Part shown: piece after piece, positions 753 to 36,600 of the stretch
How the letters are laid out: every line of letters begins with the position of its first letter
Numbering within the stretch: position 1 is the stretch's first letter
Assembly: GCA_963965975.1 (NCBI GenBank)
Contig: OZ014418.1
Location: forward strand, 4,910,775-4,974,774
DNA: 64,000 nt
Direction of reading: 5' to 3'
Origin: Xestospongia bergquistia
Lineage: Eukaryota; Porifera; Demospongiae; Haplosclerida; Petrosiidae
Notes under the pieces: generated by a model
Database searches by the model: none
What the model saw: the letters and a program-made list of their open reading frames with translations, nothing else
Told to the model about the DNA's origin: nothing
Position numbers and translations under genes: made by a program

Positions 753-775
753 GTAAGTTGGTTTGCATTAACCCA

Positions 776-802: not shown

Positions 803-967
803 AAGGTTTAGACTATTCAGTGAAGTTTCTTAAGTAAACTTATAGGTCTAAAGGACTCTATGGGACTAACTAAATTAACTGCTATTAACAGTTTAGTAAG
901 TTGGTTTGCATTAAAACTTTAATGTCTTTAATTTAAAGACTTTAGAAGGTTTAAACTATTGAGTAAA

Positions 968-10600: not shown

Positions 10601-11104
10601 TTAACAGTTTAGTAAGTTGGTTTGCATTAAAACTCTAAAGTCTTTAATTTAAAGACTTTAGAAGGTTTAAACTATTGAGTAAAGTTTATAAAGTAAACTG
10701 CTAAGTCTAAAGGACTCTATGGGACTAAAGAAATAAACCGTTATTACTAGTTTAGTAAGTTTGTTTGCATTAACCCTCTAAAGTCTTTAATTTAAAGACT
10801 TTTGAAGGATTAGACTATTGAGTGATGTTTGTAAAGTAAACTGATAGGTCTAAAGGACTCTATGGGACTAACTAAATAAACTGCTATTAACAGTTTAGTA
10901 AGTTGGTTTGCATTAACACTCTAAAGTCTTTAAATTAAAGACTTTAGAAGGTTTAGACTATCGAGCGAAGTTTATAAAGTAAACTGGTCAGTCTAAAGGA
11001 CTCTATGAAACTAACTAAATAAACTGCTATTAACAGTTTAGTAAGTTGGTTTGCATTAACACTCTAAAGTTTTTAATTTAAAGACTTTAGAAGGTTTAGA
11101 CTAT
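7620..11104 (+). repeat. 25-monomer higher-order unit, copy 2 (with two extra monomers)
   Basis: This is the second copy of the 25-mer. It matches copy 1 at an offset of about 3,569-3,578 bp until about 10,200, then at 3,864 bp (27 monomers). The shift is explained by one additional A/B dimer near 10,170-10,460, where the AACGGTTTAGT(G/A)AG monomer appears twice instead of once. The match stops at about 11,104, shortly before a small deletion at about 11,143-11,150 (GGACTATCTGGACTAAC). Downstream monomers belong to other subtypes. Confidence 0.75.
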
Positions 11105-11149
11105 TGAGTGATGTTTGTAAAGTAAACTGATAGGTCTAAAGGACTATCT

Positions 11150-11620
11150 GGACTAACTAAATAAACTGCTATTAACAATTTAGTAAGTTGGTTGGCATTA
11201 ACACTCTAAAGTCTTTAATTTAAAGACTTTAGAAGGTTTAGACTATTGAGTCAGTTTTTTAAAGTAAAGTGCTCATTCTAAAGGACTCTATGGGACTAAC
11301 TAAATAAACTGTTATACCAGTTTAGTAAGCTGGTTTGCATTAACACTCTGAAGTCTTTAAATGAAAGAATTAAGAAGGTTTGGACTGTTGAGTGAAGTTT
11401 ATAAAGTAAACAGCTCGGTCTAAAAAACTCTTTGGGACTAACTAAATAAACTATTATTAACAGTTTTGTAAGTTAGTTTGCATTTACACTCTAAAGTCTT
11501 TAATTTAAAGACTTTAGAAGGCTTAGACTATTGAGTAAAGTTTATAAAGTAAACTGCTCAGTCTAAAGGACTCTATGGGACTAAAGAAATAAACTGCTAT
11601 TAACAGTTTAGTAAGTTTGT
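11150..11620 (+). repeat. Segment duplicated at about 16,994-17,463 (offset about 5,844)
   Basis: Several linked rare variants are shared. ATTAACAATTTAGTAAG lies at 11,171 and 17,014. GAGTCAGTTTTTTAAAG lies at 11,248 and 17,091. ATGAAAGA lies at 11,361 and 17,205. All are followed by TGGACTGTTGAGTG and then TTTTGTAAGTTAGTTTGCATTTAC. Offsets are 5,843-5,844 bp, about 41 monomers with a small net deletion. A third, partial relative lies in the forward island at about 25,915-26,040. Confidence 0.7.
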
Positions 11621-14455: not shown

Positions 14456-14883
14456 ACAGTTTAGTAAGTTGGTTTGCATTAACACTCTAAAGTCTTTAAT
14501 ATAAGGACTTTAGAAGGTTTAAACTATTGAGTAAAGTTTATAAAGTAAACTGCTCTGTCTAAAGGACTTTATGGGACTAAAGAAATAAACGGCTATTAAC
14601 AGTTTAGTAAGTTGGTTTGCATTAACACTCTAAAGTCTTTAATTTAAAGACTTTAGAATGTTTAGACTATTGATTAAAGTTTATAAAGTAAACTGCTCAG
14701 TTAAAGGACTCTATGGGACTAAAGAAATCAACTGCTATTAACAGTTTAGTAAGTTGGTTTGCATTAACACTCTAAAGACTTTAATTTAAAGACTTTAGAA
14801 GGTTTAAACTATTGAGTAAAGTTTATAAAGTAAACTGCTCAGTCTAAAGTATTCTATGGGACTAAAGAAATAAACTGCTATGA
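14456..14883 (+). repeat. 428-bp trimer, first tandem copy
   Basis: The three-monomer block is repeated immediately downstream at 14,884-15,311. Distinctive variants all recur 428 bp later: TCTTTAATATAAGGACTT (14,501 and 14,929 at ATAAGG), CTGCTCTGTC, GGACTTTATGGG, ATAAACGGC, TTAAAGGACTC, and AGTCTAAAGTATTC. I read no difference between the copies until A(A/C)AGTTTAG, where 14,885 has C and 15,313 has A. Identity this high in a diverged array marks one of the youngest events in the window. Confidence 0.85.
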
Positions 14884-15311
14884 ACAGTTTAGTAAGTTGG
14901 TTTGCATTAACACTCTAAAGTCTTTAATATAAGGACTTTAGAAGGTTTAAACTATTGAGTAAAGTTTATAAAGTAAACTGCTCTGTCTAAAGGACTTTAT
15001 GGGACTAAAGAAATAAACGGCTATTAACAGTTTAGTAAGTTGGTTTGCATTAACACTCTAAAGTCTTTAATTTAAAGACTTTAGAATGTTTAGACTATTG
15101 ATTAAAGTTTATAAAGTAAACTGCTCAGTTAAAGGACTCTATGGGACTAAAGAAATCAACTGCTATTAACAGTTTAGTAAGTTGGTTTGCATTAACACTC
15201 TAAAGACTTTAATTTAAAGACTTTAGAAGGTTTAAACTATTGAGTAAAGTTTATAAAGTAAACTGCTCAGTCTAAAGTATTCTATGGGACTAAAGAAATA
15301 AACTGCTATGA
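14884..15311 (+). repeat. 428-bp trimer, second tandem copy
   Basis: Direct tandem copy of 14,456-14,883, identical as far as I can read by eye. The first visible difference falls just past its end, at 15,313. The junction lies inside conserved monomer sequence (CAGTTTAGTAAG), as expected from an in-register unequal exchange, so the exact crossover point cannot be placed. Confidence 0.85.
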
Positions 15312-16135
15312 AAAGTTTAGTAAGTTGGTTTGCATTAACACTCTAAACTCTTTAATTTAAAGACTTTAGAAAGTTAAGATTTTGAGTAAAGTTTATAAAG
15401 TAAACTGCTCAATCTAAAGGACTCTATGGGACTAAAGAAATAAACTGCTATTAAAAGTTCAGTAAGTTGGTTTATATTAACATTCAAAAGTCTTTAAATT
15501 AAAGATATTTGAATGTTTAGACTATTGAGTGAAGTTTATAAAGTAAACTGGTCAGTCTAAAGGACTCTATGAAACTAACTAAATAAACTGTTATTACTAG
15601 TTTAGTAAGTTGGTTTGCATTAACCCTATAAAGTCTTTAATTTAAAGACTTTTGAAGGATTAGACTATTGAGTGAAGTTTGTAAAGTAAACTGATAGGTC
15701 TAAAGGACTCTACGGGACTAACTAAATAAACCGCTATTAACAGTTTAGTAAGTTGGTTTGCATTAACACTCTAAAGTCTTTAATATAAAGACTTTAGAAG
15801 GTTTAAACTATTGAGTAAAGTTTAAAAAGTAAACTGCTCAGTCTAAAGGACTCTATGGGACTAAAGAAATAAACTGCTATTAACAGTTTAGTAAGTTTGT
15901 TTGCATTAACACTCTAAAGTCTTTAATTTAAAGACTTTAGAAGGTTTAGACTATTGATTAAAATTTATAAAGTAAACTGCTCAGTTAAAGGACTCTATGG
16001 GACTAAAGAAATCAACTGCTATTAACAGTTTAGTAAGTTGGTTTGCATTAACACTCTAAAGTCTTTAATTTAAAAACTTTAGAAGGTTTAGACTATTGAG
16101 TGAGGTTAATAAAGTAAAAAACTCAGTCTAAAGGA

Positions 16136-16700
16136 CACTATGAAACTAAGTAAATAAACTGCTGTTAACAGTTTAGTAAGTTTGTTTGCATTAACACTCT
16201 AAAGCCTTTAATTTAAAGACTTTAGAAGGTTTAGACTATTGAGTAAATTTCATAAAATAAACTGCTCATTCTAAAGCACTCTAAGGGACTAATTAAACTG
16301 CTAATGACAGTTTAGTAAGTTGGTCTGCATTAACGCTATGGAGTCTTTAAATTAAAGAGTTTAGAAGGTTTAGACTTTTGAGTAAAGTTTACAAAAGTAA
16401 ACAACTCGGTCTAAAGTTCTCTTTGAAACTAAGTAAATAAACTGCTGTTAACGGTTTAGTAAGTTTCTTTGCCTTAACACTCTAAAGCCTTTAATTTAAA
16501 GACTTTAGAAGGTTTAGAATATTGAGTAAATTTCATAAAATAAACTGCTCATTCTAAAGGACTCTAAGGGACTAATTAAACTGCTAATAACTGTTTAGTA
16601 AGTTGGTTTGCATTAACACTCTGAAGTCATTAAATTAAAGAGTTTAGAAGGTTTAGACTTTTGAGTAAAGTTTATAAAGTAAACAACTCGGTCTAAAGGA
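16136..16700 (+). repeat. Diverged dimer pair (283-bp unit)
   Basis: Two copies of a dimer are offset by 283 bp (AAAGCCTTTAA at 16,201 and 16,484). Each has GAAACTAAGTAAATAAACTG, then the dyad with AAAGCC in its left arm, then TTTCATAAAATAAACTGC. A second monomer follows that begins GGGACTAATTAAACTGC, 4 bases shorter than usual, and ends ACAACTCGGTC. Monomers here carry more private changes than their neighbours, so the block may be older or less exposed to homogenisation. Confidence 0.7.
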
Positions 16701-19700
16701 CTCTATGGGACTAACTAAATAAAATGTTATTAACAGTTTAGTAAGTTAGTTTGCGATAACACTCTAAAGTCTTTAATTTAAAGACTTTAGAAGGTTTAGA
16801 CTATTGATTAAAGTTTATAAAGTAAACTGCTCAGTCTACAAGACTCTATGGGACTAACTAAATAAACTGCTATTAACATTTTAGTAAGTTGGTTAGCATT
16901 AACACTCTAAGGTTTTTAATTTAAAGACTTTAGAAGGTTTAGACTATTGAGTGAAACTTGTAAAGTAAACTGATAGGTCTAAAGGACTCTATGGACTAAC
17001 AAAATAAACTGCTATTAACAATTTAGTAAGTCGGTTGGCATTAACACTCTAAAGTCTTTAATATAAAGACTTTAGAAGGTTTAGACTATTGAGTCAGTTT
17101 TTTAAAGTAAACTGCTCATTCTAAAGGACTCTATGGGACTAACTAAATAAGCTGTTATTATCAGTTTAGTAAGTTGGTTTGCATTAACACTCTGAAGTCT
17201 TTAAATGAAAGAGTTGAGAAAGTTTGGACTGTTGAGTGAAGTTTATAAAGTAAACAGCTCGGTCTAAACAAGTCTTTGGGACTAACTAAATAAACTATTA
17301 TTAACAGTTTTGTAAGTTAGTTTGCATTTACACTCTAATATCTTTAATTTAAAGACTTTAGAAGGTTTAGACTATTGAGTAAAGTTTATAAAGTAAACTG
17401 CTCAGTCTAAAGGACTCTATGGGACTAAAGAAATAAACTGCTATTAACAGTTTAGTAAGTTTGTTTGCATTAACGCTCTAAAGTCTTTAATTTAAAGACT
17501 TTATAAGGTTTAGACTATTGAGTGAAGTTTATAAAGTAAACTGATAGTTTTAAAAGACTCTATGAGACTAACTAAATAAACTATTATTAACAGTTTAGTA
17601 AGTTAGTTTGTGATAACACTCTAAAGTCTTTAATTTAAAGACTTTAGAAGGTTTAGACTATTGAGTAAAGTTTATAAAGTAAACTGCTCAGTCTAAAGGA
17701 CTCTATGGGACTAAAGAAATAAACTGCTATTAACAGTTTAGTAAGTTTGTTTGCATTAACGCTCTAAAGTCTTTAATTTAAAGACTTTAGAAGGTTTAGA
17801 GTATTGAGTGATGTTTATAAAGTAAACTGCTCAGTCAAAAGGATTCTATGGGACTAAAGAAGTAAACTGCTGTTAACAGTTTAGTAAGTTGGTTTACATT
17901 AACACTCTAAAGTCTTTAAATTAAAGACTTTATAAGGTTTAGACTATTGAGTGAAGTTTGTAAAGTAAACTGATAGGTCTAAAAGACTCTATGAGTCTAA
18001 CTAAATAAACTATTATTAACAGTTTAGTAAGTTAGTTTGTGATAACACTCTAAAGTCTTTAATTTAAAGACTTTAGAAGCTTTAGACTATTGAGTGAATT
18101 TTGTAAAGTAAACTGATAGGTCTAAAGGACTCTATGGGACTAACTAAATTAACTGCTATTAACAGTTTAGTAAGTTGGTTTGCATTAACTCTCTAATATC
18201 TTTAATTTAAAGACTTTAGAAGGTTTAGACTATTGAGTAAAGTTTATAAAGTAAACTGCTCAGTCTAAAGGACTCTATGGGACTAAAGAAATAAACTGCT
18301 ATTAACAGTTTAGTAAGTTGGTTTACATTAACACTCTAAAGTCTTTAAATTAAAGACTTTATAATGTTTAGACTATTGAGTGAAGCTTGTAAAGTAAACT
18401 GATAGGTCTAAAAGACTCTATGAGACTAAATAAATAAACTATTATTAAAAGTTTAGTAAGTTAGTTTGTGATAACACTCTAAAGTCTTTAATTTAAAGAC
18501 TTTAGAAGCTTTAGACTATTGAGTGAAGTTTGTAAAGTAAACTGATAGGTCTAAAGGACTCTATGGGACTAACTAAATTAACTGCTATTAACAGTTTAGT
18601 AAGTTGGTTTGCATTAACACTCTAAAGTCTTTAATTTAAAGACTTTAGAAGGTTTAAACTATTGAGTAAAGTTTATAAAGTAAACTGCTCAGTCTAAAGG
18701 ACTCTATGGGTCTAAGGAAATAAACTGCTATTAACAGTTTAGTAAGTTGGTTTGCATTAACCCTCTAAAGTCTTTAATTTAAAGACTTTAGAAGGTTTAG
18801 ACTATTCAGTGAAGTTTCTAAAGTAAACTGATCGGTCTAAAGGACTCTACGGGACTAACTAAATTAAATGCTATTAACAGTTTAGTAAGTTGGTTTGCAT
18901 TAACACTCTAAAGTCTTTAATTTAAAGACTTTAGAAGGTTTAAACTATTGAGTAAAGTTTATAAAGTAAACTGCTCAGTCTAAAGGACTCTATGGGACTA
19001 AAGAAATGAACTGCTATTAACAGTTTAGTAAGTTGGTTTGCATTAACACTCTAAAGTCTTTAATTTAAAGACTTTAGAAAGTTTAGATTTTGAGTAATGT
19101 TTATAAAGTAAACTGCTCAATCTAAAGGACTCTATGGGACTAAAGAAATAAACTGCTATTAAAAGTTCAGTAAGTTGGTTTGCATTAACACACTAAGAGT
19201 CTTTAAATTAAAGACTTTAGAAGGTTTAGACTATTGAGCGAAGTTTATAAAGTAAACTGGTCAGTCTAAAGGACTCTATGAAACAAACTAAATAAACTGC
19301 TATTAACAGTTTAGTAAGTTTTTTTGCATTAACACTCTAAAGTCTTTAATTTAAAGACTTTAGAAGGTTTAGACTATTGAGTAAAGTTTATAAAGTAAAC
19401 TGCTCAGTCTAAAAAACTCTATGGGACTAAAGAAGTAAACTGCTATTAACAGTTTAGTAAGTTTGTTTGCATTAATCCTCTAAAGTCTTTAATTTAAAGA
19501 CTTTGGAAGTTTAGAGTATTGAGTGAAGTTTATAAAGTAAACAGCACAGTCTAAAAGGCTCTATGAAACAGACTAAATAAACTGCTGTTAACAGTTTAGT
19601 AAATTGGTTTGCATTAACACTCAAAAGTCTTTAAATTAAAGACTTTATAAGGTTTAGACTATTGAGTGAAGTTTGTAAAGTAAACTGATAGGTCTAAAAG

Positions 19701-22700
19701 ACTCTCTGGGACTAACTAAATAAACTATTATCAACAGTTTAGTAAGTTAGTTTGTGATAACACTCTAAACTCTTTAATTTAAAGACTTTTGCAGGTTTAG
19801 ACTATTGAGTAAAGTTTATAAAGTAAACCGCTCAGTCTAAATGACTCTATGGGACGAAAGAAATAAACTGCTATTAACAGTTTAGTAAGTTGGTTTGCAT
19901 TAACCCTCTAAAGTCTTTAATTTAAAGACTTTAGAAGCTTTAGACTATTGAGTGAAGTTTGTAAAGTAAACTGATAGGTCTAAAGGACTCTATGGGACTA
20001 ACTAAATTAACTGCTATTAACAGTTTAGTAAGTTGGTTTGCATTAACACTCTAAAGTCTTTAATTTAAAGACTTTAGAAGGTTTAAACTATATAGTAAAG
20101 TTTCTAAAGTAAACTGCTCAGTCTAAAGGACTCTATGGGACTAAAGAAATAAACTGCTATTAACCGTTTAGTAAGTTGGTTTGCATTAACCCTCTAAAGT
20201 CTTTAATTTAAAGACTTTAGAAGGATTAGACTATTGAGTGAAGTTTGTAAAGTAAACTGATAGGTCTAAAGGACTCTATGGGACTAACTAAATTAACTGC
20301 TATTAACACTTTAGTAAGTTGGTTTGCATTAACACCCTAAAGTCTTTAATTTAAAGACCTTAGAAGGTTTAAACTATTGAGTAAAGTTTATAAAGTAAAC
20401 TGCTCAGTCTAAAGGACTCTATAGGACTAAAGAAATGAACTGCTATGAACAGTTTAGTAAGTTGGTTTGCATTAACACTCTAAAGTCTTTAATTTAAAGA
20501 CTTTAGAAGGTTTAGACTATTGAGTGAAGTTTGTAAAGTAAACTGATAGGTCTAAAGGACTCTATGGAACTAACTAAGTAAACTGCTATTAACAGTTCAG
20601 TAAGTTGGTTTGCATTAACACTCTAAAGTCTTTAATATAAAGACTTTAGAAGGTTTAAACTATTGGGTAAAGTTTATAAAGTAAACTGCTCAGTATAGAG
20701 GACTCTATGGGACTAAAGAAATAAACTGCTATTAACAGTTTAGTAAGTTGGTTTGCGTTAACACTCTAAAGTCTTTAATTTAAAGACTTTAGAAGGTTTA
20801 AACTACTGATTAAAGTTTATAAAGTAAACTGCTCAGTCTAAAGGACTCTATGGCGCTAACTAAATAAACTGCTATTTACATTTTAGTAAGTTGGTTTGCA
20901 TTAACGCTCTGAAGTCTTTAAATTGAAGAGTTTTGAAGATTTAGACTATTGAGTGAAGTTTATAAAGTAAACAGTTCGGTCTAAAGGACTCTATGGGACT
21001 AACAAAATAAACTATTCTTAACAGTTTTGTAAGTTAGTTTGCAATAACACTCTAAAGTCTTTAATTTAAAGACTTTAGAAGGTTTAGACTATTGAGTAAA
21101 GTTTATAAAGTAAACTGCTCAGTCTATAGGACTCTATGGGACTAAAGAAATAAACTGCTATTAACAGTCTGGTAAGTTGGGTTGCGTTAACACTCTAATG
21201 TCTTTAATTTAAATACTTTAGAAGCTTAAGAGTATTGAGTGAAGTTTACAAAGTAAACAGCTCTTCTTAAATGTCTCTATGAAACTAACGAAATAAATTG
21301 CTGTTAACAGTTTTGTAAGTTGGCTTGCATTAACACTCAAAAGTCTTTAATTTAAAGACTTTAGAAGGTTTAGACTATTGAGTGAATATTGTAAAGTAAA
21401 CTGATAGGTCTTAGGGACTCTATGGGACTAACTAAATAAACTGCTATTAACAGTTCAGTTAGTTGGTTTGCATTAACACTTTAAAGGCTTTTATTTAAAG
21501 ACTTTAGAAGGTTTAGACTATTGAGTAAAGTTTATAAGGTAGATTGCTCCCTCTAAAGGACTCTATGGGACTAAAGAAAGGAACTGCTATTAACAGTTCG
21601 GTAAGTTTTTTTACATTAGCACTCTAAAGTCTTTAAATTAAAGACTTTAGAAGGTTTAGAATATTGAGCGAAGTTTATAAAGTAAACTGGTCAGTCTAAA
21701 GGACTCTATGAAACTAACTAAACAAACTGTTATTAACAGTTTAGTAAGTTCATTTGCGTTAACACTATAAAGTCTTTAATTTAAAGACTTTAGAAGGTTT
21801 AGACTTTTGAGTCAGTTTTTTAAAGTAAACTGCTCATTTAAAGGACTCTATGGGGCTAACTAAATAAACAGTTATTAAGAATTTAGTAAGTTGGTTTGCA
21901 TTAACACTCTGAAGTCTTTAAATTAAAAAGTGTGGAAGCTTTAGACTATTGAGTGAAGTTTATAAAGTAAACAGCTCGGTCTAAAAGACTCTTTGGGACT
22001 AAATAAGTACAATATTATTAACAGTTTTGTGAGTTAGTTTGCATTAAACTCTAAAGTCTTTAATTTAAAGACTTTAGAAGGTTTAGACTATTGAGTAAAG
22101 TTTATAAAGTAAACTGCTCAGTCTAAAGGACTCTATGGGACTAAAGAAATAAACTGCTATTAACAGTTTAGTAAGTTGGCTTGCATTAACGCTCTAAAGT
22201 TTTTAATTTAAAGACTTTAGAAGGTTTAGAGTATTGAGTGAAGTTTATAAAGTAAACAGCTCAGTGTAAAGGTCTCTATGAAGCTAACTAAATAAACTGC
22301 CGTTAACAGTTTAGCAAGTTGGTTTGCATTAACACTCAACAGTCTTTAAAATAAAGACTCTAGAGGCTTTAGACTATTGAGTGAAGTTTGTAAAGTAAAC
22401 TAATAGGTCTAAAGCACTCTATGGGACTAACTAAATAAACTATTATTAACAGTTTAGAAAGTTAGTTTGTGATAACATTCTAAAGTCTTTAATTTAAAGA
22501 CTTTAGAAGGTTTACAGTATTGAGTAAAGTTTATAAAATAAACAGCTCAGTCTAAAGGACTCTATGGGACTAAAGAAATAAACTGCTATTAACAGTTTAG
22601 TCAGTTGGTTTGCATAAACACTCTAAAGTCTTTAATTTAAAGACTTTAGAAAGTTTAGACTATTGAGTGAAGTTTGTAAAGTAAACTGATAGGTCTAAAG

Positions 22701-22843
22701 GACTCTATGGGACTAACTAAATTAACTGCTATTAACAGTTTAGTAAGTTGGTTTGCATTAACACTCTAAAGTCTTTAATTTAAAGACTTTAGAAGGTTTA
22801 AACTATTGAGTAAAGTTTATAAAGAAAACTTCTCAGTCTAAAG

Positions 22844-22900
22844 GACTCTATGGGACACTAAACTGTTAATAGCAGCTTATTTCTTTAGTCCCATAGAGTC
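22844..22900. repeat. Fold-back junction between forward and reverse arrays
   Basis: The forward array stops at GACTCTATGGGAC (22,844-22,856). The next base begins reverse-oriented sequence, ACTAAACTGTTAATAGCAG. The exact reverse complement GTCCCATAGAGTC follows at 22,888-22,900. The result is a 13-bp perfect stem with a 31-nt spacer, extended outward as an imperfect inverted repeat because both flanks are satellite. At the crossover the forward monomer would have T and the sequence has A; the reverse monomer would have T before ACTAAAC and the sequence has C. There is thus no microhomology, and the 27-bp dyad is not involved. Confidence 0.85.
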
Positions 22901-25104
22901 CCTTAGACTGAGCAGTTTACTTTATAATCTTTACTCAATAGTTTAAACCTTCTAAAGTCTTTAAATTAAAGACTTTAGAGTGTTAATGCAAACCAACTTA
23001 CTAAACTGTTAATAGTGGTTTATTTATTTAGTCCCAGAGAGTCCTTTAGACCGATCAGTTTACTTTACAAACTTCACTCAATAGTCTAATCCTTCTAAAG
23101 TCTTTAAATTAAAACCTTTAGAGTGTTATTGCAAACAAACTTACTAAACTACTAATAACAGTTTATTTAGTAAGTTGTTATAGAGTCCTTTAGATTGAGC
23201 ACTTTACTTTATAAACTTCACTCAAATGTCTAAACATTCAAAACTAATTTAAAGACTTTAGAGTGTTAATGCAAAACAACTTACTAAACTGTTTATAGCA
23301 GTTAAATAGTTACTCCCATAGAGTCCTTTAGATCTATCAGTTTACTTTACAAACTTAACTGAATAGTCTAAACCTTCTTAAGTCTTTAAATTAAAGACTT
23401 TAGAGCGTTAATGCAAACCCACTTACTAAACTGTTAATAGCAGTTTATTTCTGTAGTCCCATAGAGTCCTCTAGACTGAGCAGTTCACTTTATAAACTTT
23501 ACTCAATAGATTAAACCTTCTAAAGTATTTAAATTGAAGACTTTAGAGTGTGAATGCAAACCAACTTACTAAACTGTTAATAGCAGTTAATTTAGTTAGT
23601 CCCATAGAGTCCTTTAGACTGAGCAGTTTACTTTATAAACTTCACTCAATAGTCTAAATCTTCTAAAGTCTTTAAATTAAAGACTTGAGAGTGTTAATGA
23701 GAACCAAATTACTAAACTGTTAATAGCAGTTTATTTCTTTATTCCCATAGAGTCCTTTAGACTGAGCAGTTTACTTTACAAACTTCACTGAATAGTCTAA
23801 ACCTTCTAAAGTCTTTAAATTAAAGACTTTAGAGGGTTAATGCAAACCAACTTAGTAAACTGTTAATAGCAGTTTATTTCTTTAGTCCCATAAAGTCCTT
23901 TAGACTGAGCAGTTTACTTTATAAAATTTACTCAATAGTTTAAACCTTCTAAAGTTTTTAAATTAAAGACTTTTGAGTGTTAATGCAAACCAACTTACTA
24001 AACTGTTAATAGCACTTAATTAGTTAGTCCCATAGAGTCCTTTAGACCTATCAGTTTACTTTACAAACATCACTGAATAGTCTAAACCTTCGAAAGTCTT
24101 TAAATTAAAGACTTTAGAGGGTTAATGCAATCCAACTTACTAAACTGTTAATAGCAGTTTATTTCTTTTGTCCCATAGAGCCCTTTAGACTGAGCAGTTT
24201 ACTTTATGAACATTACTCAATAGATTAAACCTTCAAAAGTATTTAAATTAAAGACTTTAGAGTGTTAATGAAAACCAACTTACTAAACTGTTAATAGCAG
24301 TTAATTTAGTTAGTCCCATGGAGTCCTTTAGACTGAGCAGTTTACTTTATAAACTTCACTCAATAGTCTAAATCTTCTAAAGTCTTTAAATTAAAGACTT
24401 TAGAGTGTTAATGCAAATCAACTTCCTAAACTGTTAATAGCAGATTATTTCTTTAGTCCCATAGAGTCCTTTAGACTGAGCAGTTTACTTTATAAACTTT
24501 ACTCAATAGTTTAAACCTTCTAAAGGCTTTAAATTAAAGACTTTAGAGTGTTAATGCAAACCAACTTACTAAACTGTTAATAGCAGTTTATTTCTTTAGT
24601 CCCATAGAGTCCTTTAGACTGAGCAGTTTACTTTATAAACTTTACTCAATCGATTAATCCTTCTAAAGTATTTAAATTAAAGACTTTAGAGTGTTATCGC
24701 AAACTAACTTACTAAACTGTTAATAATAGTTTATTTAGTTAGTCCCATAGAGTCCTTTAGACCTATCAGTTTACTTTACAATCTTCACTCAATTGTCTAA
24801 AGCTTCTAAAGTCTTTAATTTAAAGACTTCAGAGTGTTAATGCAAACCAACTTACTAAAATGTTAACAGCAGTTTATTTAGCTAGTTTCATAGAGCCCTT
24901 TAGACTGAGCTGTTTACTTTATAAACTTCACTCAATACTCTAAACCTTCTAAAGTCTTGAAATTAAAGACTTTAGAGCGTTTATGCAAACCAACTTACTA
25001 AACTGTTAATAGCAGTTTCTTTCTTTAGTCCCATAGAGTGCTTTAGACTGAGCAGTTTACTTTATAAACTTTACTCAATAGTCTAAACCTTCAGAAGTCT
25101 TTAA
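22857..25104 (-). repeat. Short reverse-oriented satellite domain
   Basis: About 15.7 monomers in reverse orientation (TTTAGTCCCATAGAGTCC, then CAGTTTACTTTATAAAC, then CTAAACCTTCTAAAG). It starts at the fold-back junction at 22,856/22,857 and ends on the dyad centred at 25,105. Its last part, from about 24,700, shares rare variants with about 38,550-38,920 at an exact offset of 13,835 bp. Just after the first junction some monomers are unusually changed: around 23,160-23,182 the usual TTAGTTAGTCCCATAG reads TTAGTAAGTTGTTATAG, and near 23,246 the left dyad arm is shortened by about 4 bases. Confidence 0.93.
24700..25083 (-). repeat. Segment related to about 38,535-38,918 (offset 13,835)
   Basis: Shared rare variants are ATCTTCACTCAATTGTC (24,781 and 38,616), TTACTAAAATGTTAACAGC with TTTAGCTAG, GAGCGTTTA(T/G)GC, TTTCTTTCTTTAGTCC, and GAGTGCTTTAGACTG (25,036 and 38,871). 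The offset is the same for both measured pairs. The copy at 38.5 kb runs on in reverse orientation, while this one meets the orientation switch at 25,105. The island was therefore probably flipped after the two segments shared a common source. Confidence 0.75.
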
Positions 25105-25118
25105 TTTAAAGTCTTTAG
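25092..25118. repeat. Orientation switch (reverse to forward) on a dyad, centre 25,105
   Basis: To the left the sequence is a reverse monomer (CAATAGTCTAAACCTTC). To the right it is a forward monomer (GAAGTTGTAGAGTATTGAGTG). Between them is the monomer's dyad, centred on T at 25,105, with a few arm mismatches (for example GTC in place of GAC at 25,111-25,113). The exact crossover cannot be placed within the dyad because it is nearly self-complementary. The left flank from about 24,700 is a relative of about 38,550-38,920, where the array continues in reverse orientation without a switch. Confidence 0.85.
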
Positions 25119-26975
25119 AAGTTGTAGAGTATTGAGTGAAGTTTTTAAAGTAAGCAGCTCAGTCTAAAGGGCTCTATGAAACTAACTAAATAAACTGCTG
25201 TTAACAGTTTAGTTAGTTGGTTTGAATGAACACTCAAAAGTCTTTAAATTAAAGACTTTAGTCGCTTTAGACTGTTGAGTGAAGTTTGTAAAGTTAACTG
25301 ATAGGTCTAAAGGACTCTATGGGACTAACTAAATAAACTATTATTAACAGTTTAGTAAGTTAGTATGTGATAACCCTCTAAAGTCTTTAATTTAAAGACT
25401 TTAGAAGGTTTAGACTATTTAGTAAAGTTTGTAAAGTAAACTGCTCAGTCTAAAGGACTCTATGGGACTAAAGAAATACACTGCTATTAACCGTTTAGTA
25501 AGTTGGTTTACATTAACCTTCTAAAGTGTTTATTTTAAAGACTTTAGAAGGTTTAGACTATTGAGTGAAGTTTGTAAAGTAAACTGATAGGTCTAAAGGA
25601 CTCTATGGGACTAACTAAATTAACTGCTATTAACAGTTTAGTAAGTTAATTTGCATTAAGACTCTAAAGTCTTTAATTTAAAGACTTTAGAAGGTTTAAA
25701 CTATTGAGTAAAGTTCATAAAGTAAACTGCTCAGTCTAAAGGACTCTATGGGACTAAAGAAATAAACTGCTATTAACAGTTTAGTAAGTTGGTTTGCATT
25801 AACGCTCTAAAGTCTTTCATTTAAAGACTTTAGAAGGTTTAGACTATTGAGTGAAGTTTGTAAAGTAAACTGATCGGTCTAAAGAACTCTATGGGACTAA
25901 CTAAATAAACTCCTATTCACAATTTAGTAAGTTGGTTGGCATTAACACTGTAAAGTCTTTAATTTAAAGACTTTAGAAGGTTTAGACTATTGAGTCAGTT
26001 TTTTAAAGTAAACTGCTCATTCTAAAGGGACTCTACGGGGCTATCTAAATAAACTGCTATTAACAATTTAGTAAGTTGGTTTGCATTAACACTCTAAAGT
26101 CTTTAATTTAAAGACCTTAGAAGGTTTAAACTATTGAGAGAAGTTTATAAAGTAAACTGCTCAGTCTAAAGGTCTTTATGGCACTAACTAAATAAACAGC
26201 TATTAACAGTTTAGTAAGTTAGTTTGCATTAACACTCTAAAGTCTTTAATTTAAAGACTTTAGAAGGTTTAAACTACTGAGTAAAGTTTTTTAAAGTAAA
26301 CTGCTCAGTCTAAAGGACTCTATGGGACTAAAGAAATAAACTATTATTAACAGTTTTGTAAGTTACTTTGCATTAACACTCTAAAATCTTTAATTTAAAG
26401 ACTTTAGAAGGTTTAGACTATTGAATAAAGTTTATAAAGTAAACTGCTCAGTCTAAAGGACTCTATGGGACCATAGAAATAAACTGCTATTAACAGTTTA
26501 GTAAGTTGGTTTGCATTAACGCTCTAAAGTCTTTAATTTAAAGACTTTAGAAGTTTTAGAGTATTGAGTGAAGTTTATAAAGTATGCAGCTCAGTCTAAA
26601 GGACTCTATGAAGCTAACTAAATAAACTGTTGTTAACAGTTTAGTAAGTTGGTTTGAATTAACACTCAAAAGTCTTTAAATTAAAGACTTTAGACGCTTT
26701 AGACTATTGAGTGAAGTTTGTAAAGTTTATAAAATAAACTGCTCAGTCTAAAGGACTCTATTGGAGTAAAGAAATAAACTGCTATTAACAGTTTAGTAAG
26801 ATTGTTTGCATTAACACTATAAAGTCTTTAATTTAAAGACTTTAGAAGGTTTAGACTATTGAGTAACATTTATAAAGTAATCTGTTCAGTCTAAAGGACT
26901 CTATGGGACTAAAGAAATGAACTGCTATTAATAGTTCAGTAAGTTTGTTTGCATTAACACTCTGAAGTCTTTAAA
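25105..26975 (+). repeat. Forward-oriented island flanked by reverse arrays
   Basis: A block of about 1,870 bp (about 13 monomers) reads forward while both flanks read reverse. Each end falls on the centre of the monomer's 27-bp dyad, at 25,105 and 26,975. If the block is mentally flipped back, both junctions restore ordinary reverse monomers in phase; the restored left junction has the common TTTAAAGACTTCAGAG form. Inside, the monomer at about 25,992 has the GAGTCAGTTTTTTAAAG variant, which is also found at 11,248, 17,091 and 21,809 in the forward domain. A 152-bp hybrid monomer lies at 26,601. Inversion in place is the simplest reading; insertion of a forward block, or an assembly error, are alternatives. 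Confidence 0.9.
26601..26752 (+). repeat. 152-bp hybrid monomer
   Basis: The distance between successive GGACTCTAT anchors is 152 bp here, about 9 longer than usual. The added bases come from GTTTGTAAAGTTTATAAAATAAAC, where a B-type GTTTGTAAAG runs into an A-type GTAAAGTTTATAAA with GTAAAG shared. The first part of the monomer is B-like (GAGTGAAGTTTG) and the end is A-like (TGCTCAGTC). This looks like an out-of-register exchange between two subtypes at a 6-nt match. Confidence 0.75.
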
Positions 26976-26988
26976 TTAAGGACTTTAA
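26962..26988. repeat. Orientation switch (forward to reverse) on a dyad, centre 26,975
   Basis: The left flank is a forward monomer (GTTTGCATTAACACTCTGAAG). The right flank is a reverse monomer (TTTAAAGTGTTAATGCAAAC). The dyad is centred on A at 26,975. Both sides therefore carry the same half of the monomer in mirror image, giving an imperfect inverted repeat of kilobase arms around this point. It is the second end of the forward island. Confidence 0.85.
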
Positions 26989-28190
26989 AGTGTTAATGCA
27001 AACTAACATACTGAACTGTTAATAGCAGTTTATTTACTTAGTCCCATAGAGTCCTTTAGACCTATCAGTTTACTTTACAAACTTCACTCAATAGTCTAAA
27101 CCTTCTAAAGTCTTTCAATTAAAAACTTTTGAGTGTTAATGCAAACGAACTTACTAAACTGTTAACAGCAGTTTATTTAGTTAGTCTCAAAGAGTTCTTT
27201 AGAAAGAGCTGTTTACTTTGTAAACTTCACTCAATACTCTAAACCTTCTAAAGTGTTGAAATTAAAGACTTTTTAGTTTTAATTAACCCAACTTACCAGA
27301 CAGTTAATAGAAGTTTATTTCTTTAGTCCCATAGAGTCCTTTATACTGTGCAGTTTACTTTATAAACTTTACTCAATAGTCTAAACCTTCTAAAGTCTTT
27401 AAATTAAAGACATTATAGTGTTATCGCAAACTAACTTGCAAAACAGTTAATAATAGTTTATTTAGTTAGTCCCATAGAGTCCTTTAGACCGAACTGTTTA
27501 CTTGATAAACTTCACTCAATAGTCTAAACCTTCTAAACTCTTTAATGTAAAGACTTCAGAGCGTTAATGCAAACCAAATTACTGGCTGTTAATAGCAGTT
27601 CATTTCTTTAGTCCCATAGAGTCCTTTAGACTGAGCAGTTTACCTTATCAACTTCATTCAATAATCTACACCTTCTAAAGTCTTTAAATTAAAGACTTTA
27701 GAGTGTTAATGAGAACCAACTTACTAAACTGTTAATAGCAGTTTATTTCTTTAGTCCCGTAGAGTCCTTTAGACTGAGCAGTTTACTTTATAAACTTTAC
27801 TCAATAGTCTAAACCTTCTAAAGTCTTTGAATTAAAGACCTTAGATTGTTATCACAAACTAACTTACTAAACTGATAATAATAGTTTATTTAGTTAGTCC
27901 CATAGAGTCCTTTAGACCTATTAGTTTGCTTTAAAAACTTCACTCAATAGGCTAAAGCTTCTAAAGTCTTTAAATTAAAGAGTTTTTAGTCCTAATGCAA
28001 ACCAACTTACTAAACTGTTAACAGCAGTTTCTTTAGTTAGTTTCGTAGAGCCCTTTAGACTGAGCTGCTTACTTTATAAACTTCACTCAATACTCTAAAC
28101 CTTCTAAAGTCTTTAAATTAAAGACTTTAGAGTGTTAATGCAAACCAACTTACTAAATTGTTAATAATAGTTTATTTAGTTAGTCCCATA

Positions 28191-28275
28191 GAGTCCTTTA
28201 GACCTATCAGTTTAGAGGGTTAATGTAAACCAACTTACTAAACGGTTAATAGCAGTGTATTTCTTTAGTCTCATA
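28191..28275 (-). repeat. 85-bp truncated monomer
   Basis: GAGTCC anchors lie at 28,191 and 28,276, only 85 bp apart. CCTATCAGTTTA is joined directly to GAGGGTTAATG, so the dyad and the segment before it, about 58 bp, are missing. TTTA occurs at both ends of the lost part, as expected for a microhomology deletion. An identical break occurs at 34,147-34,231. Confidence 0.85.
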
Positions 28276-29880
28276 GAGTCCTTTAGACTGAGCAGTTTAC
28301 TTTATAAACTTTACTCAATAGTCTAAACCTTCTAAAGTCTTTAAATTAAAGACTTTAGAGTGTTATCACAAACTAACTTACTAAACTGTTAATAATAGTT
28401 TATTTAGTTTGTCCCATAGAGTCCTTTAGGCCTATCAGTTTACTTTACAAACTTTCCTCAATAGTTTAAACCTTCTAAACTCTTTAAATTAAAGACTTTA
28501 GAGTGTTAATGCAAACCAACTTACTAAACTGTGAATAGCAGTTTAAGTAGTTAGTCCCGTGGAGTCCTTTAAACCTATCAGTTTACTTTACAATCTTCAC
28601 TCAATAGTCTAAACCTTCTAAAGTCTTTAAATTAAAGACTTTAAAGGGTTAATGCAAACCAACTTACTAAACTGTTAATAGAAGTTTATTTCTTTAGTCC
28701 CATAGAGTCCTTTAGACTGAGTAGTTTACATTATAAACTTTACTCAACAGTCTAAGCCTTCTAAAGTCTTTAAATTAAAGACTTTAGAGTGTTATCACAA
28801 ACTAACCTACTAAATTGTTAATAATAGTTTATTTAGTTACTCCCATAGAGTCCTTTAGACCTATCAGTTTACTTTACAAACTTCACTCAATAGTCTAAAG
28901 CTTCTAAAGTCTTTAATTTAAAGACTTTAGAGCGTTCATGCTAACCAACTTACTAAACTGTTAATAGCAGTTTATTTAGTTAGTTTCATAGAGCCCTTTA
29001 GACTGAGCTGCTTACTTTATAAACTTCACTCAATAGTCTAAACCTTCTAAAGTCTTTAAATTAAAGACTTTAGAGTGTTAACACAAACTAACTTACTAAA
29101 CTGTTAATAATAGTTTATTTAGTTTGTCCCATAGAGTCCTTTAGACCTATCAGTTTACTTTACAAACTTTCCTTAATAGTTTAAACCTTCTAAAGTCTTT
29201 AAATTAAAGACTTTAGAGTGTTAATGCAAACCAACTTACTAAACTGTGAATAGCAGTTAAATTAGTTAGTCCCGTAGAGTCCTTTAGACCTATCAGTTTA
29301 CTTTACAAACTTCACTCAATAGTCTAAACCTTCTAAAGTCTTTAAATTAAAGACTTTAAAGGGTTAATGCAAACCAACTTACTAAACTGTTAATAGCAGT
29401 TTATTTCTTTAGTCCCATAGAGTCCTTTAGACTGAGTAGTTTACATTATAAACTTTACTCAACAGTCTAAGCCTTCTAAAGTCTTTATATTAAAGACTTT
29501 AGAGTGTTATCACAAACTAACTTACTAAATTGTTAATAATAGTTTATTTAGTTAGTCCCATAGAGTCCTTTAGACTATCAGTTTACTTTACAAACTTCAC
29601 TCAATAGTCTAAAGCTTCTAAAGTCTTTAATTTAAAGACTTCAGAGAGTTAAAGCAAACCAACTTACTAAACTGTTAACAGCAGTTTATTTAGTTAGTTT
29701 CATAGAGCCCTTTAGACTGAGCTGCTTACTTTATAAACTTCACTCAATAGTCTAAACCTTCTAAAGTCTTTAAATTAAAGACTTTAGAGTGTTATCACAA
29801 ACTAACTTACTAAACTGTTACTAATAGTTTATTTAGTTAGTCCCATAGAGTCCTTTAGACCTATCAGTTTATTTTACAAA

Positions 29881-32090
29881 CATCACACAATAGTCTAAAG
29901 CTTCTAAAGTCTTTAATTTAAAGACTTCAGAGTGTTAATACAAACCAACTTACTAAACTGTTAATAGCAGTTTATTTAGTTAGTTTCATAGAGCCCTTTA
30001 GACTGAGCAGTTTACTTTATAAAATTTACTCAATAGTCTAAACCTTCTAAAGTCTTTAAATTAAAGACTTTAAAGTGTTACTGCAAACTAACTTACAAAA
30101 CTGTTAATAATAATTACTTTAGTTACTCCCAAAGAGTCCTTTAGACCGAGCAGTTTACTTTATATACTTCACTCAATAGTCTAAACCTTCTAAACTCTTT
30201 AATTTAAAGACTTCAGAGTGTTAATGCAAACCAACTTACTAAACTGTTAATAACAGTTTATTTAGTTAGCCCCATAGAGTCCTTTAGAATGAGCAGTTTA
30301 CTCTAAAAAACTGACTCAATAGTTTAAAACTTCTAAAGTCTTTAAATTAAAGACTTTAGAGTGTTAAAGAAACGAACTTACTAAACTGTTAATAACAGTT
30401 TATTTAGTTAGTTTCGTAGAGTCCTTTAGACTGACCAGTTTACTTTATAAACTTCGCTCAATAGTGTAAACCTTCTAAAGTCTTTAAATTAAAGACTTTA
30501 GAGTGTTAATGCAAAACAACTTTCTAAACTGTTAATAGCAGTTGATTTCTTTAGTTCTATAGAGTCCTTTAAACTGAGCAGTTTACTTTATAAACTTTAC
30601 TCAATATTCTAAACCTTCTAAAGTCTTTTAATTAAGAACTTTAGAGTGTTAATGCAAACCAACTTACTAAACTGTTAATAGCAGTTTATTTCTTTAGTCC
30701 CATAGAGTCCTTTACACTGAGCAGTTTACTTTATAAACTTTACTCAATCGATTAAACCTTCTAAACTCTTTGAATTAAAGACTTTAGAGTGTTAATGCAA
30801 ACCAACTTATTAAACTGATAATAGCATTTAATTTAGTTAGTCCCATGGAGTCCTTTAGACTGAGCAGTTTACTTGACAAACTTCACTCAATAGTCTAAAC
30901 CTTCTAAAGTCTTTAATTTAAAGACTTCAGAGTGTTAATGCAAACAAACTTACTAAACTGTTACTAATAGTTTATTTAGTTAGTCCCATAAAGTCCTTTA
31001 GACCTATCAGTTTATTTTACAAACATCACACAATAGTCTAAAGTTTCTAAAGTCTTTAATTTAAAGACTTCAGAGTGTTAATGCAAACCAACTTACTAAA
31101 CTGTTAATAGCAGTTTATTTAGTTAGTTTCATAGAGCCCTTTAGACTGAGCAGTTTACTTTATAAACTTTACTCAAGAGTCTAAACCTTCTAAAGTCTTT
31201 AAATTAAAGACTTTAAAGGGTTACTGCTAACTAACTTACAAAACTGTTAATAATAGTTTATTGAGTTACTCCCAAAGAGTCCTTTTGACCGAGCAGTTTA
31301 CTTTATATACTTCACTCAATAGTCTAAACCTTCTAAACTCTTTAATTTAAAGACTTCAGAGTGTTAATGCAAACCAACTTACTAAACTGTTAATAACAGT
31401 TTATTTAGTTAGCCCCATAGAGTCCTTTAGAATGAGCAATTTACTTTAAAAAACTGAATCAATAGTCTAAACCTTCTAAAGTCTTTAAATTAAAGACTTT
31501 AGAGTGTTAAAGCAAACGAACTTACTAAACTGTTAATAACAGTTTATTTAGTTAGTTTCATAGAGTCCTTTAGACTGACCAGTTTACTTAATAAAGTTCG
31601 CTCAATAGTGTAAACCTTCTAAAGTCTTTAAATTAAAGACTTTAGAGTGTTAATGCAAACCAACTTTCTAAACTGTTAATAGCAGTCGATTTCTTTAGTT
31701 CCATAGAGTCCTTTAAACTGAGCAGTTTACTTTATAAACTTTACTCAATATTCTAAACCTTCTAAAGTCTTTAAATTAAAAACTTTAGAGTGTTAATGCA
31801 AACCAACTTACTAAACTGTTAATAGCAGTTTATTTCTTTAGTCCCATAGAGTCCTTTAGACTGAGCAGTTTACTTTATAAACTTTACTCAATAGATTAAA
31901 CCTTCTAAACTCTTTACATTAAAGACTTTAGAGTGTTAATGCAAACCAACTTATTGAACTGTTAATAGCAGTTAATTTAGTTAGTCCCATAGAGTCCTTT
32001 AGACTAAGCAGTTTACTTTACAAACTTCACTCAATAGTCTAAACCTTCTAAAGTCTTTAATTTAAAGACTTCAGAGTGTTAATGTAAACC
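29881..32090 (-). repeat. 8-monomer tandem unit (about 1,143 bp), two copies
   Basis: CATCACACAA lies at 29,881 and 31,024. The same order of variants then follows in both copies: TTACTCCCAAAGAGTCC with TTTATATACTTC, AGCCCCATAG with TTAGAATGAGC and AAAACTGACTC, GTTAAAG(A/C), CAATAGTGTAAACC, GATTTCTTTAGTT, and CAATATTCTAAACC. The second copy stops matching at about 32,090, where the monomer reads GTTAACAGCAG instead of GTTACTAATAG. The unit is inside the first copy of the 5,956-bp segment and appears only once in the second. Confidence 0.8.
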
Positions 32091-33690
32091 AACTTACTAA
32101 ACTGTTAACAGCAGTTTATTTAGTTAGTTTCATAGAGACCTTTAGACTGAGCTCTTTACTTTATAAACATCACTCAATATTCTAATCCTTCTAAAGTCTT
32201 TAAATTAAAGACTTTAGAGGGTTAATGCAAACCATCTTACTAAACTAGTAATAACAGTTTATTATTTAGTTAGTTTCATAGAGTCCTTTAGACTGACCAG
32301 TTTACTTTATAAACTTCACTTAATAGTCTAAACATTCAAAACTCTTTAATTTAAAGACTTTAGAGTGTTAACGTAAACCAACTTACTGAACTTTTAATAG
32401 CAGTTTATTTCTTTAGTCCCATATAGTCCTTTAGATTGAGCAGTTTACTTTATAAACCTTACTCTATAATCTAAACCTTTTAAAGTGTTTAAATTAAAGA
32501 CTTTAGAGTGTTAATGCAAACCAACTTACAAAACTGTTAATAGCAGTTTATTTCTTTAGTCCCATAGAGACCTTTACACTGAGCAGTTTACTTTATAAAC
32601 TTTACTCAATAGATTAAACCTTCTAAAGTCTTTAAATTAAAGACTTTAGAGTGTTAATGAAAACCAACTTACTAAACTGTTAATAGCAGTTAATTTAGTT
32701 AGTCCCATAGAGTCCTTTAGACCTATCAGTTTACTTTACAAACTTCACTCAATAGTCTAAACCTTCTAAAGTTTTTGAATTTAAGACTTTAGAGGATTAA
32801 TGCAAACCAATTTACTAAAATGTTAATAGAAGTTTATTTCTTTAGACCCATAGAGTCCTTTAGACTGAGCAGTTTACTTTATAAACTTTACTCAATAGTC
32901 TAAACCTTCTAAAGTCTTTAAATTAAAGACTTTAGAGTGTTATCGCAAACGAACTTACTTAACTGTTAATAATAGTTTATTTAGTTACTCCCATTGAGTC
33001 CTTTAGACCTATCAGTTTACTTTACAAACTTCACTCAAAAGTCTAAAGCTTCTAAAGTCTTTAATTTAAAGACTTCAGAGTCTTAATGCAAACCAACTTA
33101 CTAAACTGTAAACAGCAGTTTACATAGTTAGTTTCATAGAGCCCATTAGACTGAGCTGTTTACTTTATAAACTTCACTCAATACTCTAAACCTTCTAAAG
33201 TCTTTAGTCTTTAAATTAAAGACTTTAGAGCGTTAATGCAAACAAACTTAATAAACTGTTAATAGCAGTTTGTTTCTTTAGTCCCATAGAGTCCTTTAGA
33301 CTGAGCTGTTTACATTATAAACTTTACTCAATAGTCTAAACCTTCTAAAGTATTTAAATTAAAGACTTTAGAGTGATAATGCAAACGAACTTACTAAACT
33401 GTTAATTACAGTTCATTTAGTTAGTTTCATAGAGTCCTTTAGACTGACCAGTTTACTTTATAAACTTTGCTCAATAGTCTAAACCTTCTAAAGTCTTTAA
33501 TTTAAAGACTTTAGTGTGTTAACGGAAACCAACTTACTGAATTGTTAATAGCAGTTCATTTCTTTAGTCCCATATAGTCCTTTAGACTTAGCAGTCTACC
33601 TTATAAACTTTACTCAATAGTCTAAAACTTCTAACGTGATTAAATTAAAGAGTTTAAAGTGTTAATGCAAACCAACTTACTGCACTGTTA

Positions 33691-36600
33691 ATAGCAGTTT
33701 ATTTCCTTAGTCCCGTAGAGTCCTTTAGACTGAGCAGTTTACTTTATAAACTTTACTCAATAGTCTAAACCTTCTAAAGTCTTTAAATTAAAGACTTTAG
33801 ATTGTTATCACAAACTTACTTACTAAACTGTTAATAATAGTTTAATTAGTTAGTCCCATAGAGTCCTTTAGACCTATTAGTTTACTTTACAAACTTCACT
33901 CAATAGGCTAAAGCTTCTAAAGTCTTTAAATTAAAGAGTTTTTAGTCTTAATGCAAGCCAACTTACTAAAATGTTAACAGCAGTTTCTTTAGTTAGTTTC
34001 ATAGAGCCCTTTATACTGAGCTGCTTACTTTATAAACTTCACTCAATACTCTAAACCTTCTAAAGTCTTTAAATTAAAGACTTTAGAGTGTTAATGCAAA
34101 CCAACTTACTAAACTGTTAATAATAGTTTATTTAGTTAGTCCCATAGAGTCCTTTAGACCTATCAGTTTAGAGGGTTAATGTAAACCAACTTACTAAACG
34201 GTTAATAGCAGTGTATTTCTTTAGTCCCATAGAGTCCTTTAGACTGAGCAGTTTACTTTATAAACTTTACTCAATAGTCTAAACCTTCTAAAGTCTTTAA
34301 ATTAAAGAGTTTAGAGTGTTATCACAAACTAACTTACTAAACTGTTAATAATAGTTTATTTAGTTTGTCCGATAGAGTCCTTTAGACCTATCAGTTTACT
34401 TTACAAACTTTACTCAATAGTTTAAGCCTTGTAAAGTCTTTAAATTAAAGACTTTAGAGTGTTAATGCAAACCAATTTACTAAACTGTTAATAGCAGTTA
34501 AATTAGTTAGTCCCGTAGAGTCCTTTAGACCTATCAGTTTACTTTACAAAATTCACTCAATAGTCTAAACATTCTAAAGTCTTTAAATTAAAGACTTTAA
34601 AGGGTTAATGCAAACCAACTTACTAAACTGTTAATAGCAGTTTATTTCTTTAGTCCCATAGAGTCCTTTAGACTGAGTTGTTTACATTATAAAATTTACT
34701 CAACAGTCAAAGCCTTCTAAAGTCTTTAAATTAAAGACTTTAGAGTGTTATCACAAACTAACTTACTAAACTGTTAATAATAGTTTATTTAGTTAGTCCC
34801 ATAGAGTCCTTTAGACCTATCAGTTTACTTTACAAACTTCACTCAATAGTCTAAAGCTTTCAAAGTCTTTAATTTAAGACTTCAGTTAATGCAAACCAAC
34901 GTACTAAATTCTTAACAGCAGTTTATTTATTTAGTTTCATAGAGCCCTTTAGACTGAGCTTCTTACTTTATAAACTTCACTGAATAGTCTAAACCTTCTA
35001 AAGTCTTTAAATTAAAGACTTTAGAGTGTTATCACAAACTAACTTACTAAACTGTTAATAATAGTTTATTTAGTTAGTCCCATAGAGTCCTTTAGACCTA
35101 TCAGTTTACTTTACAAACTTTACTCAATAGTTTAAACCTTCTAAAGTCTTTAAATTAAAGACTTTAGAGTGTTAATGCAAACCAACTTACTAAACTGTTA
35201 ATAGCAGTTAAATTAGTTAGTCCCGTAGAGTCCTTTAGACCTATCAGTTTACTTTACAAACTTCACTCAATAGTCTAAACCTTCTAAAGTCTTTAAATTA
35301 AAGACTTTAAAGGGTTAATGCAAGCCAACTTACTAAACTGTTAATAGCAGTTTATTTCTTTAGTCCCATAGAGTCCTTTAGACTGAGTTGTTTACATTAT
35401 AAACTTTACTCAACAGTCTAAGCCTTCTAAAGTCTTTAAGTTAAAGACTTTAGAGTGTTATCACAAACTAACTCACTAAATTGTTAATAATAGTTTATTT
35501 AGTTAGTCCCATAGAGTCCTTTTGACCTATCAGTTTACTTTACAAAATTCACTCAATAGTCTAAAGCTTCTAAAGTCTTTAATTTAAAGACTTCAGAGAG
35601 TTAATGCAAACCAACTTACTAAACTGTTAACAGCAGTTTTTTTAGTTAGTTTCATAGAGCCCTTTAGACTGAGCTGCTTACTTTATAAACTTCACTCAAT
35701 AGTCTAAACCTTCTAAAGTCTTTAAATTAAAGACTTTAGAGTGTTATCACAAACTAACTTACTAAACTGTTACTTATATTTTATTTAGTTAGTCCCATAG
35801 AGTCCTTTAGACCTATCAGTTTATTTTACAAACATCACACAATTGTCTAAAGCTACTAAAGTCTTTAATTTAAAGACTTCAGAGTGTTAATACAAACCAA
35901 CTTACAAAACTGTTAATAGCAGTTTATTTAGTTAGTTTCATAAAGCCCTTTATACTGAGCAGTTTACTTTATAAACCTTACTCAATAGTCTAAAACTTCT
36001 AAAGTCTTTAAATTGAAGACTTTAAAGATTTACTGCAAACTAACTTACAAAACTGTTAATAATAGTTTATTTAGTTATTCCCAAAGAGTTTTGTAGACCG
36101 AGCAGTTTACTTTATATACTTCACTCAATAGTCCAAACCTTCTAAACTCTTTAATTTAAATGAGCAGTTAACTTTATAAAATTTTCTAAATAGTATAAAC
36201 CTTCTAAAGTCTTTAAATTAAAGACTTTAGAGTGTTAATGCAAACCAACTTTCTAAACTGTTAATAGCAGTTTATTTCTTTATTCCCATAGAGTCCTTTA
36301 CACTGAGCAGTTTACTTTATAAACTTTACTCAATAGATTAAACCTTCTAAACTCTTTAAATTAAAGACTTTAGAGTGTTAGTGCAAACCAACTTATTAAA
36401 CTGTTAATAGCAGTTTATTTAGTTAGTCCCATAGAGTCTTTTAGACTGAGCAGTTTACTTTACAAACTTCACTCAATAGTCTAAACCTTCTAAAGTCTTT
36501 AATTTAAAGACTTCAGAGTGTTAATGCAAACCAACTTACTAAACTGTTAACAGCAGTTTATTTAGTTAGTTTCATAGAGACCTTTAGACTGAGCTGTTTA

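Follow-up and report, generated by a model that had tools for sequence, protein, structure and literature searches.

What turns a satellite array around, and at which base does it turn? The question is raised by a stretch of 64,000 bp from the sponge Xestospongia bergquistia (contig OZ014418.1, here C8; C8:4910775-4974774 of a 146-Mb assembly in 21 contigs), referred to below as the window, in which 13 satellite units run forward in the midst of a reverse-oriented array. In Tandem Repeats Finder (TRF) and in a two-orientation profile, the whole window is one unbroken satellite array, with no base assigned to non-satellite sequence. The unit is 143 bp long and AT-rich (about 29% G+C), and units within the window share a mean identity of 87%, i.e. 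they differ by about 13%. The forward island is probably (at roughly 0.6) the product of exchange or template switching between short palindromes, or dyads, carried by the unit; one clean inversion in place is a possible form of this process.

Two such dyads are found in the unit. Dyad 1 (AAAGTCTTTAAWTTAAAGACTTT and neighbours) is a near-perfect 27-bp palindrome centred on consensus base 71, with 13-bp arms and one central base. Dyad 2 is weaker and interrupted, with 7-bp arms and a 7-nt loop centred on consensus base 24. The best conserved 25-bp windows of the unit fall in dyad 1 (0.96 vs 0.92 for the rest of the unit outside both dyads), and its central unpaired base is variable (0.80). Perfect 13-bp arms occur in 41% of 1,798 units, and dyad 1 plus flanks (37 nt) has a predicted folding energy of -10 kcal/mol (z -6.4). 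Covariation between the arms of dyad 1 showed no excess, the mean of 12.05 paired positions being the same in shuffles. Hence, dyad 1 is conserved as a sequence, for instance as a putative protein site, and not visibly as a hairpin. By simple arithmetic, reflections about dyad 1 preserve the 143-bp lattice and reflections about dyad 2 do not.

Orientation was called with a cyclic two-orientation profile and a Viterbi path that may change orientation at any phase of the unit. Three changes were obtained in the window, at 22,857 (forward to reverse, F to R), 25,105 (R to F) and 26,975 (F to R), and these were the same at switch penalties of 15, 20, 30 and 45. The latter two enclose the island (25105..26974, plus strand), which in a unit-by-unit reading comprises 13 dyad-to-dyad units within the reverse array, one of them bearing a small internal duplication at 26,720. 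At both junctions the array reflects exactly about consensus base 71, the centre of dyad 1, with no base gained or lost, and from dyad centre to dyad centre the island spans 1,870 bp or 13.08 units. As delimited by the Viterbi path and its ambiguity intervals, the left junction dyad occupies 25092..25118 (centre 25,105) and the right one 26962..26988 (centre 26,975), each with 10 of 13 arm positions paired; the right one is also the genome-scan match C8:4937721-4937777. Because the site is a palindrome, the breakpoint of such dyad junctions is undecidable over 29 nt, and the left junction, called at 25,093, is equivalent to 25,105. An earlier interpretation of the letters by a model (the sequence-only reading) had put both ends of the island on these dyad centres, about 1,870 bp or 13 monomers apart, and a path free to switch at any phase placed them there as well. 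Both breakpoints lie inside copies of an inverted repeat, as in inverted-repeat-mediated inversion.

Is the island a singular accident? The reading of C8 covered 4.5-4.7 Mb plus the window, 264 kb in all. Five array-scale switches were found there: two exact at dyad 1 (the island ends), one exact at dyad 2 (C8:4,527,084) and two at neither. The chance of an exact reflection about one dyad is 1/143 per switch, and under a uniform null three exact reflections at either dyad among five switches have a P of about 3e-5, or about 1e-3 if the island ends are taken as one event. Long subarrays of this one satellite stand in opposite orientation, an arrangement of the macro-dyad type described for Tribolium madens.

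Recurrence across the genome was assessed with patterns that combine a motif and its reverse complement, matched exactly, across a spacer of 31 allowed lengths; each pattern sees near-symmetric reflections only, in 31 of the 143 registers. Five dyad-spanning patterns returned eight distinct in-array junctions on six contigs, seven of which have the exact reflection spacer (six at dyad 1, one at dyad 2). The dyad-1 F-to-R junctions are found on C2, C4, C8 (the window), C10, C11 and C13, with the exact in-phase spacer in 6/6. Two matches, both exact, came from the first of the dyad-1 F-to-R patterns (C2, C13). The second gave five (C2 again, C4, the window on C8, C10 and C11), all at the exact spacer among 31 lengths, for which the fair count is four of four, its motif having been chosen after the match in the window was known. 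For five exact spacers a uniform spacer null gives a P of about 4e-8, and about 1e-6 without the window junction. The dyad-2 R-to-F pattern had a single match, likewise exact, at C2:12,320,749 (or C2:12320721), and the dyad-1 R-to-F pattern misses the junction at 25,105 because the flanks there are mutated. The letters of the dyad region differ among the C2, C4, C8 and C13 junctions. The flanks covered are those of C8, C2 and one C13 junction, and the C10 and C11 junctions are known by place and length only. Kept out of these counts were a C4 fragment (F33 to R108, sum 142), whose sequence is degenerate and whose switch falls outside the dyad, and the micro-switches of fragment L027. The pattern matches C14:641997 and C1:11818071 were excluded, their letters being non-satellite. 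On C2, the dyad-1 F-to-R junction (12,307,593) and the dyad-2 R-to-F junction lie about 13.2 kb apart, so that 12307593-12320749 is possibly a reverse island with its ends at different dyads, of which the first 2 kb do read as reverse. The C2 array is younger, with units about 93% alike there.

Several results weigh against the palindrome as the site of turning. At 22,857, the main F-to-R boundary of the window, the array does not reflect about a dyad; the units meet in a blunt join (F5 to R36) that breaks phase and falls close outside dyad 2, from whose register it departs by 6 nt, unlike the two dyad-centred joins 2-4 kb away. Likewise, the array-scale switch at C8:4,565,090 is complex and off-dyad, which makes two such cases among the five on C8. 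The ends of two C8 micro-inversions are exact dyad reflections in 0 of 4, and counting them leaves 3 of 9 C8 switches exact. In the genome, the only match of the dyad-1 R-to-F pattern, C13:3253979, keeps the dyad core and lacks 9 nt of one arm, and the dyad-2 F-to-R pattern had no in-array match, its sole match being the off-array one on C14. In favour of the dyads, four control patterns at other unit registers found no in-array junction (0, 0, 0 and 1 off-array match), with 0.28-0.41 of motif pairs expected intact in the sequence read, compared with 0.17-0.43 for the dyad searches. Each control, however, sees 31 of 143 registers and requires exact motifs, and would overlook switches that are asymmetric or scattered. 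Counts by themselves show a modest excess (P 0.04 for the first four junctions), and the junctions may be non-independent if one was copied between chromosomes. Finally, all of them are known from the assembled sequence alone. The sequence-only reading had proposed an inversion site in every unit and a comparison of other switches with the nearest dyad centre. In-phase, dyad-centred switches on several contigs, with 3/5 array-scale switches on C8 and 7/8 junctions in the genome exact, speak for that idea; it does not extend to 22,857 and C8:4,565,090, which are off-dyad, nor to two switches that use dyad 2 instead. The micro-inversions themselves measure 38 bp (C8:4672354-4672391) and 30 bp (C8:4683065-4683094), the latter looking like a snap-back copy beside dyad 1.

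The pattern as a whole suggests that the palindrome is the place where the array is turned around. Since a palindrome equals its own reverse complement, each pair of copies in an array forms a direct and an inverted repeat at once. Two dyads on opposite strands could therefore meet by strand annealing, crossover or template switching during replication, and an exchange from dyad to dyad would continue the array in the opposite orientation, with phase kept and no base lost. Over many such events, forward and reverse islands and macro-dyads could build up. The 13-unit island would then have arisen in one of two ways, by one inversion between a pair of dyads or by two template switches from dyad to dyad that copied in an inverted patch. 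Exact reflections occur at both dyads and only those at dyad 1 keep the lattice; hence, their common factor is palindromy rather than phase-keeping, which favours exchange between dyads over lattice-keeping alone. That the palindrome causes the switches rather than accompanying them is a step that we infer, as is the enzymatic route.

Was the block flipped in place? This special case of dyad-to-dyad exchange, a single inversion through recombination, homologous or by annealing, of two dyad-1 copies at a distance of 13 units, has the simplest signature in its favour, namely two exact dyad-1 ends 13 units apart, both in phase. The sequence-only reading had held that flipping the block back restores normal reverse monomers at both ends. 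Phase is indeed restored, as any reflection about a palindrome guarantees; the usual order of neighbours is not. True neighbouring monomers are recognisable in these arrays (score 0.024 vs 0.001 for random pairs), their order being clearly non-random, and flipping the block back gave likelihood ratios (LR) of 0.092 at the left and 0.277 at the right junction (product about 0.025). Joining both flanks without the block gave 0.41. A simpler neighbour test ranked the flipped-back joins at the 1st and 10th percentile among true neighbours. The five internal controls include two that are likewise below 1 (0.31 and 0.51, both in the block), so the result from neighbour order is moderate evidence, and the event may be old.

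Further evidence against a clean flip comes from an un-inverted paralogue. The last four units of the left flank (24534..25105, minus strand) align with 38,369-38,940 at 97.6% identity (14 differences in 572, counted by eye), and the similarity ends at the junction dyad. The next unit after the paralogue resembles the first flipped unit at about 91% and the first right-flank unit at about 87% (also by eye). Compared with 97.6%, these values indicate that neither the flipped block nor the right flank carries the paralogy on. An inverted patch made by two template switches, or an old and reworked inversion, accounts for the data at least as well as one clean inversion, which we regard as possible but doubtful. 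No fixed higher-order repeat was found in these arrays, and the flip could hence not be dated from higher-order phase. Two other comparisons were set aside: the self-BLAST segment 26,965-30,208 / 32,912-36,160 (93.9%) is no paralogue cut at the junction, its four junction-side units being at background, and paired comparisons at 32,922, in which the left flank reaches about 90% and the flipped block about 84%, would if anything speak against a flip.

A second route to inverted arrays is fold-back duplication, or origin-dependent inverted-repeat amplification, in which a replication fork or a broken DNA end folds back on itself at the dyad and copies its own strand. Inversion junctions at pre-existing short inverted repeats are described for yeast (PMC10766183; this and the other papers cited are used for those parts of their text that were available), and the 30-bp micro-inversion at C8:4683065 resembles such a snap-back. 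The joined arms should then be mirror copies. Over 13 to 15 units, however, the mirrored arms were at background at all six switches compared (22857, 25105, 26975, C8:4527084, C8:4565090 and C2:12307593, the last with 0.928 vs a background of 0.928); the C13:3740797 junction, with only 155 bp of reverse array beyond it, lay outside this comparison. Weak hints of likeness exist at short range. With a one-unit offset, the first five mirrored unit pairs at 25,105 are 90-94% alike, the 13-unit mean of 0.886 being at background, and both sides of this junction match C8:4525.6-4526.4 kb at 93.5% (BLAST), which the reflection test bears out only partly. At 22,857, likeness is 95 and 94% in the first two mirrored pairs and falls to background thereafter. 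The one-unit-offset likeness at 25,105 is what one would expect if the template had switched to the adjacent dyad of the opposite strand. Only great age or short copy tracts could save fold-back from the arm comparison; it is disfavoured in its recent form and, overall, unlikely. Exchange between distant units, in turn, predicts what is seen, i.e. joined arms whose mean likeness over 13 units does not exceed that of other units.

Alternatively, switches may arise anywhere, and only those that leave a bound protein or nucleosome on its 143-bp lattice may persist. The conservation of dyad 1 without covariation beyond shuffles is as expected for a protein site, and phase is kept in 5/5 matches of the second dyad-1 F-to-R pattern. 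Such selection would not have spared the out-of-phase switches at 22857 and C8:4565090, the 59-bp deletion junctions at 28215 and 34171 or the dyad-2 reflections that break the dyad-1 lattice, all of which persist, and we consider it quite unlikely. Very improbable is an assembly artefact, in the form of false joins or fold-back chimeric reads at palindromes, to which junctions taken from an assembly are in principle exposed, given that chimeras would produce the mirror-identical arms absent at the six switches, that the 1.87-kb island is shorter than ordinary long reads, and that a 27-bp palindrome among units differing by about 13% should not mislead a long-read assembler.

How far can exchange between dyads be generalised? 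Tentatively, and at somewhat less than even odds, orientation switches on every chromosome could stem mainly from the palindrome within the unit; monomer dyads would thereby generate the macro-dyad architecture of centromeres in phase. The closest known system is that of TmSat1 and TmSat2 in T. madens (PMC13081366), (peri)centromeric macro-dyad arrays with long forward and reverse subarrays. As described there, these share with the Xestospongia array opposite subarrays, short inverted repeats within the units and recurring switch sites. In T. madens, the switch sites are specific diverged segments (INV_1a, INV_1b and INV_2) that are 98-99% alike among thousands of copies, whereas the junctions here lie in the ordinary palindrome of the unit, with dyad-region letters that differ among C2, C4, C8 and C13 and a spacing that is exactly reflective. 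Mixed forward and reverse arrays with dyads in each monomer are also reported for Chionographis japonica (PMC10264360); its monomers measure 23 and 28 bp, and the available text of that report does not relate switch positions to the dyads. Models of origin-dependent inverted-repeat amplification and leading-lagging template switching in yeast (PMC4689423, PMC10766183) likewise place junctions at pre-existing short inverted repeats. There, in the portions at hand, the arms are copies of each other and repeat spacings of 40-80 bp are over-represented, unlike here, where the arms are not full copies and dyad 1 is almost without spacer. For human satellite arrays, a review (PMC10813616) describes inversions inside centromeric arrays and crossover between inverted repeats, and names, in its available sections, no within-unit palindrome as a breakpoint. 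A satellite of 143 bp from a rotifer (PMC8447722, in part) has a higher G+C content, with a peak at 37%.

A literature search, mostly without subscription papers, returned no report that places satellite orientation switches on the unit's own palindrome. What appears to be new in these sequences is hence this placement, satellite macro-dyads being already known. Orientation reversals have been seen in long-read centromere assemblies, e.g. human (PMC10813616, in the text available); in the present array the breakpoints can be read almost to the base. Should the palindrome direct the switches, the rule would predict switch positions in any dyad-bearing satellite and could be tested cheaply in published centromeres. 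It would also link monomer palindromes, a long-noted feature of centromeres, to large-scale architecture.

Regarding the genomic setting, a pattern search over the dyad with up to three mismatches gave 22,034 matching places. Among the matches listed, those of each contig sit in one internal region, except for one C1 match at 1.55 Mb. By this clustering among the listed matches, the satellite is likely (peri)centromeric and the array may be regarded as centromere-like; a centromeric satellite would bind CENP-A/CenH3.

Around the island, the window consists of three further blocks, delimited by TRF and the Viterbi path. A forward-oriented array of about 160 units (3..22856, plus strand) is followed, across the out-of-phase boundary at 22,857, by about 16 reverse units (22857..25104, minus strand; ambiguity intervals were used here as well), and beyond the island a reverse array (26976..64000, minus strand) runs to the window end. 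Within the latter, a 59-bp deletion junction (R117 to R58) is present in identical form at 28215 and 34171, 5,956 bp apart, both copies falling within a segment duplicated at about 94%. At 36161, an out-of-register join (R66 to R127) starts a 94.9% copy of 31,719-34,170, apparently a tandem duplication of about 4.4 kb. The edge of the satellite array lies at C8:4500731, and in its first kilobases several joins are out of register, the one from F53 to F135 being present both at C8:4505522 and at 4508700. The C8 array is further interrupted by non-satellite inserts of 358 bp (4529706-4530063) and 1,010 bp (4537031-4538040) that have similar ends in opposite orientation and apparent 5-bp target duplications. 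These look like a DNA transposon plus a short derivative, a putative assignment. A third non-satellite stretch, of 495 bp, is located at C8:4530729-4531223.

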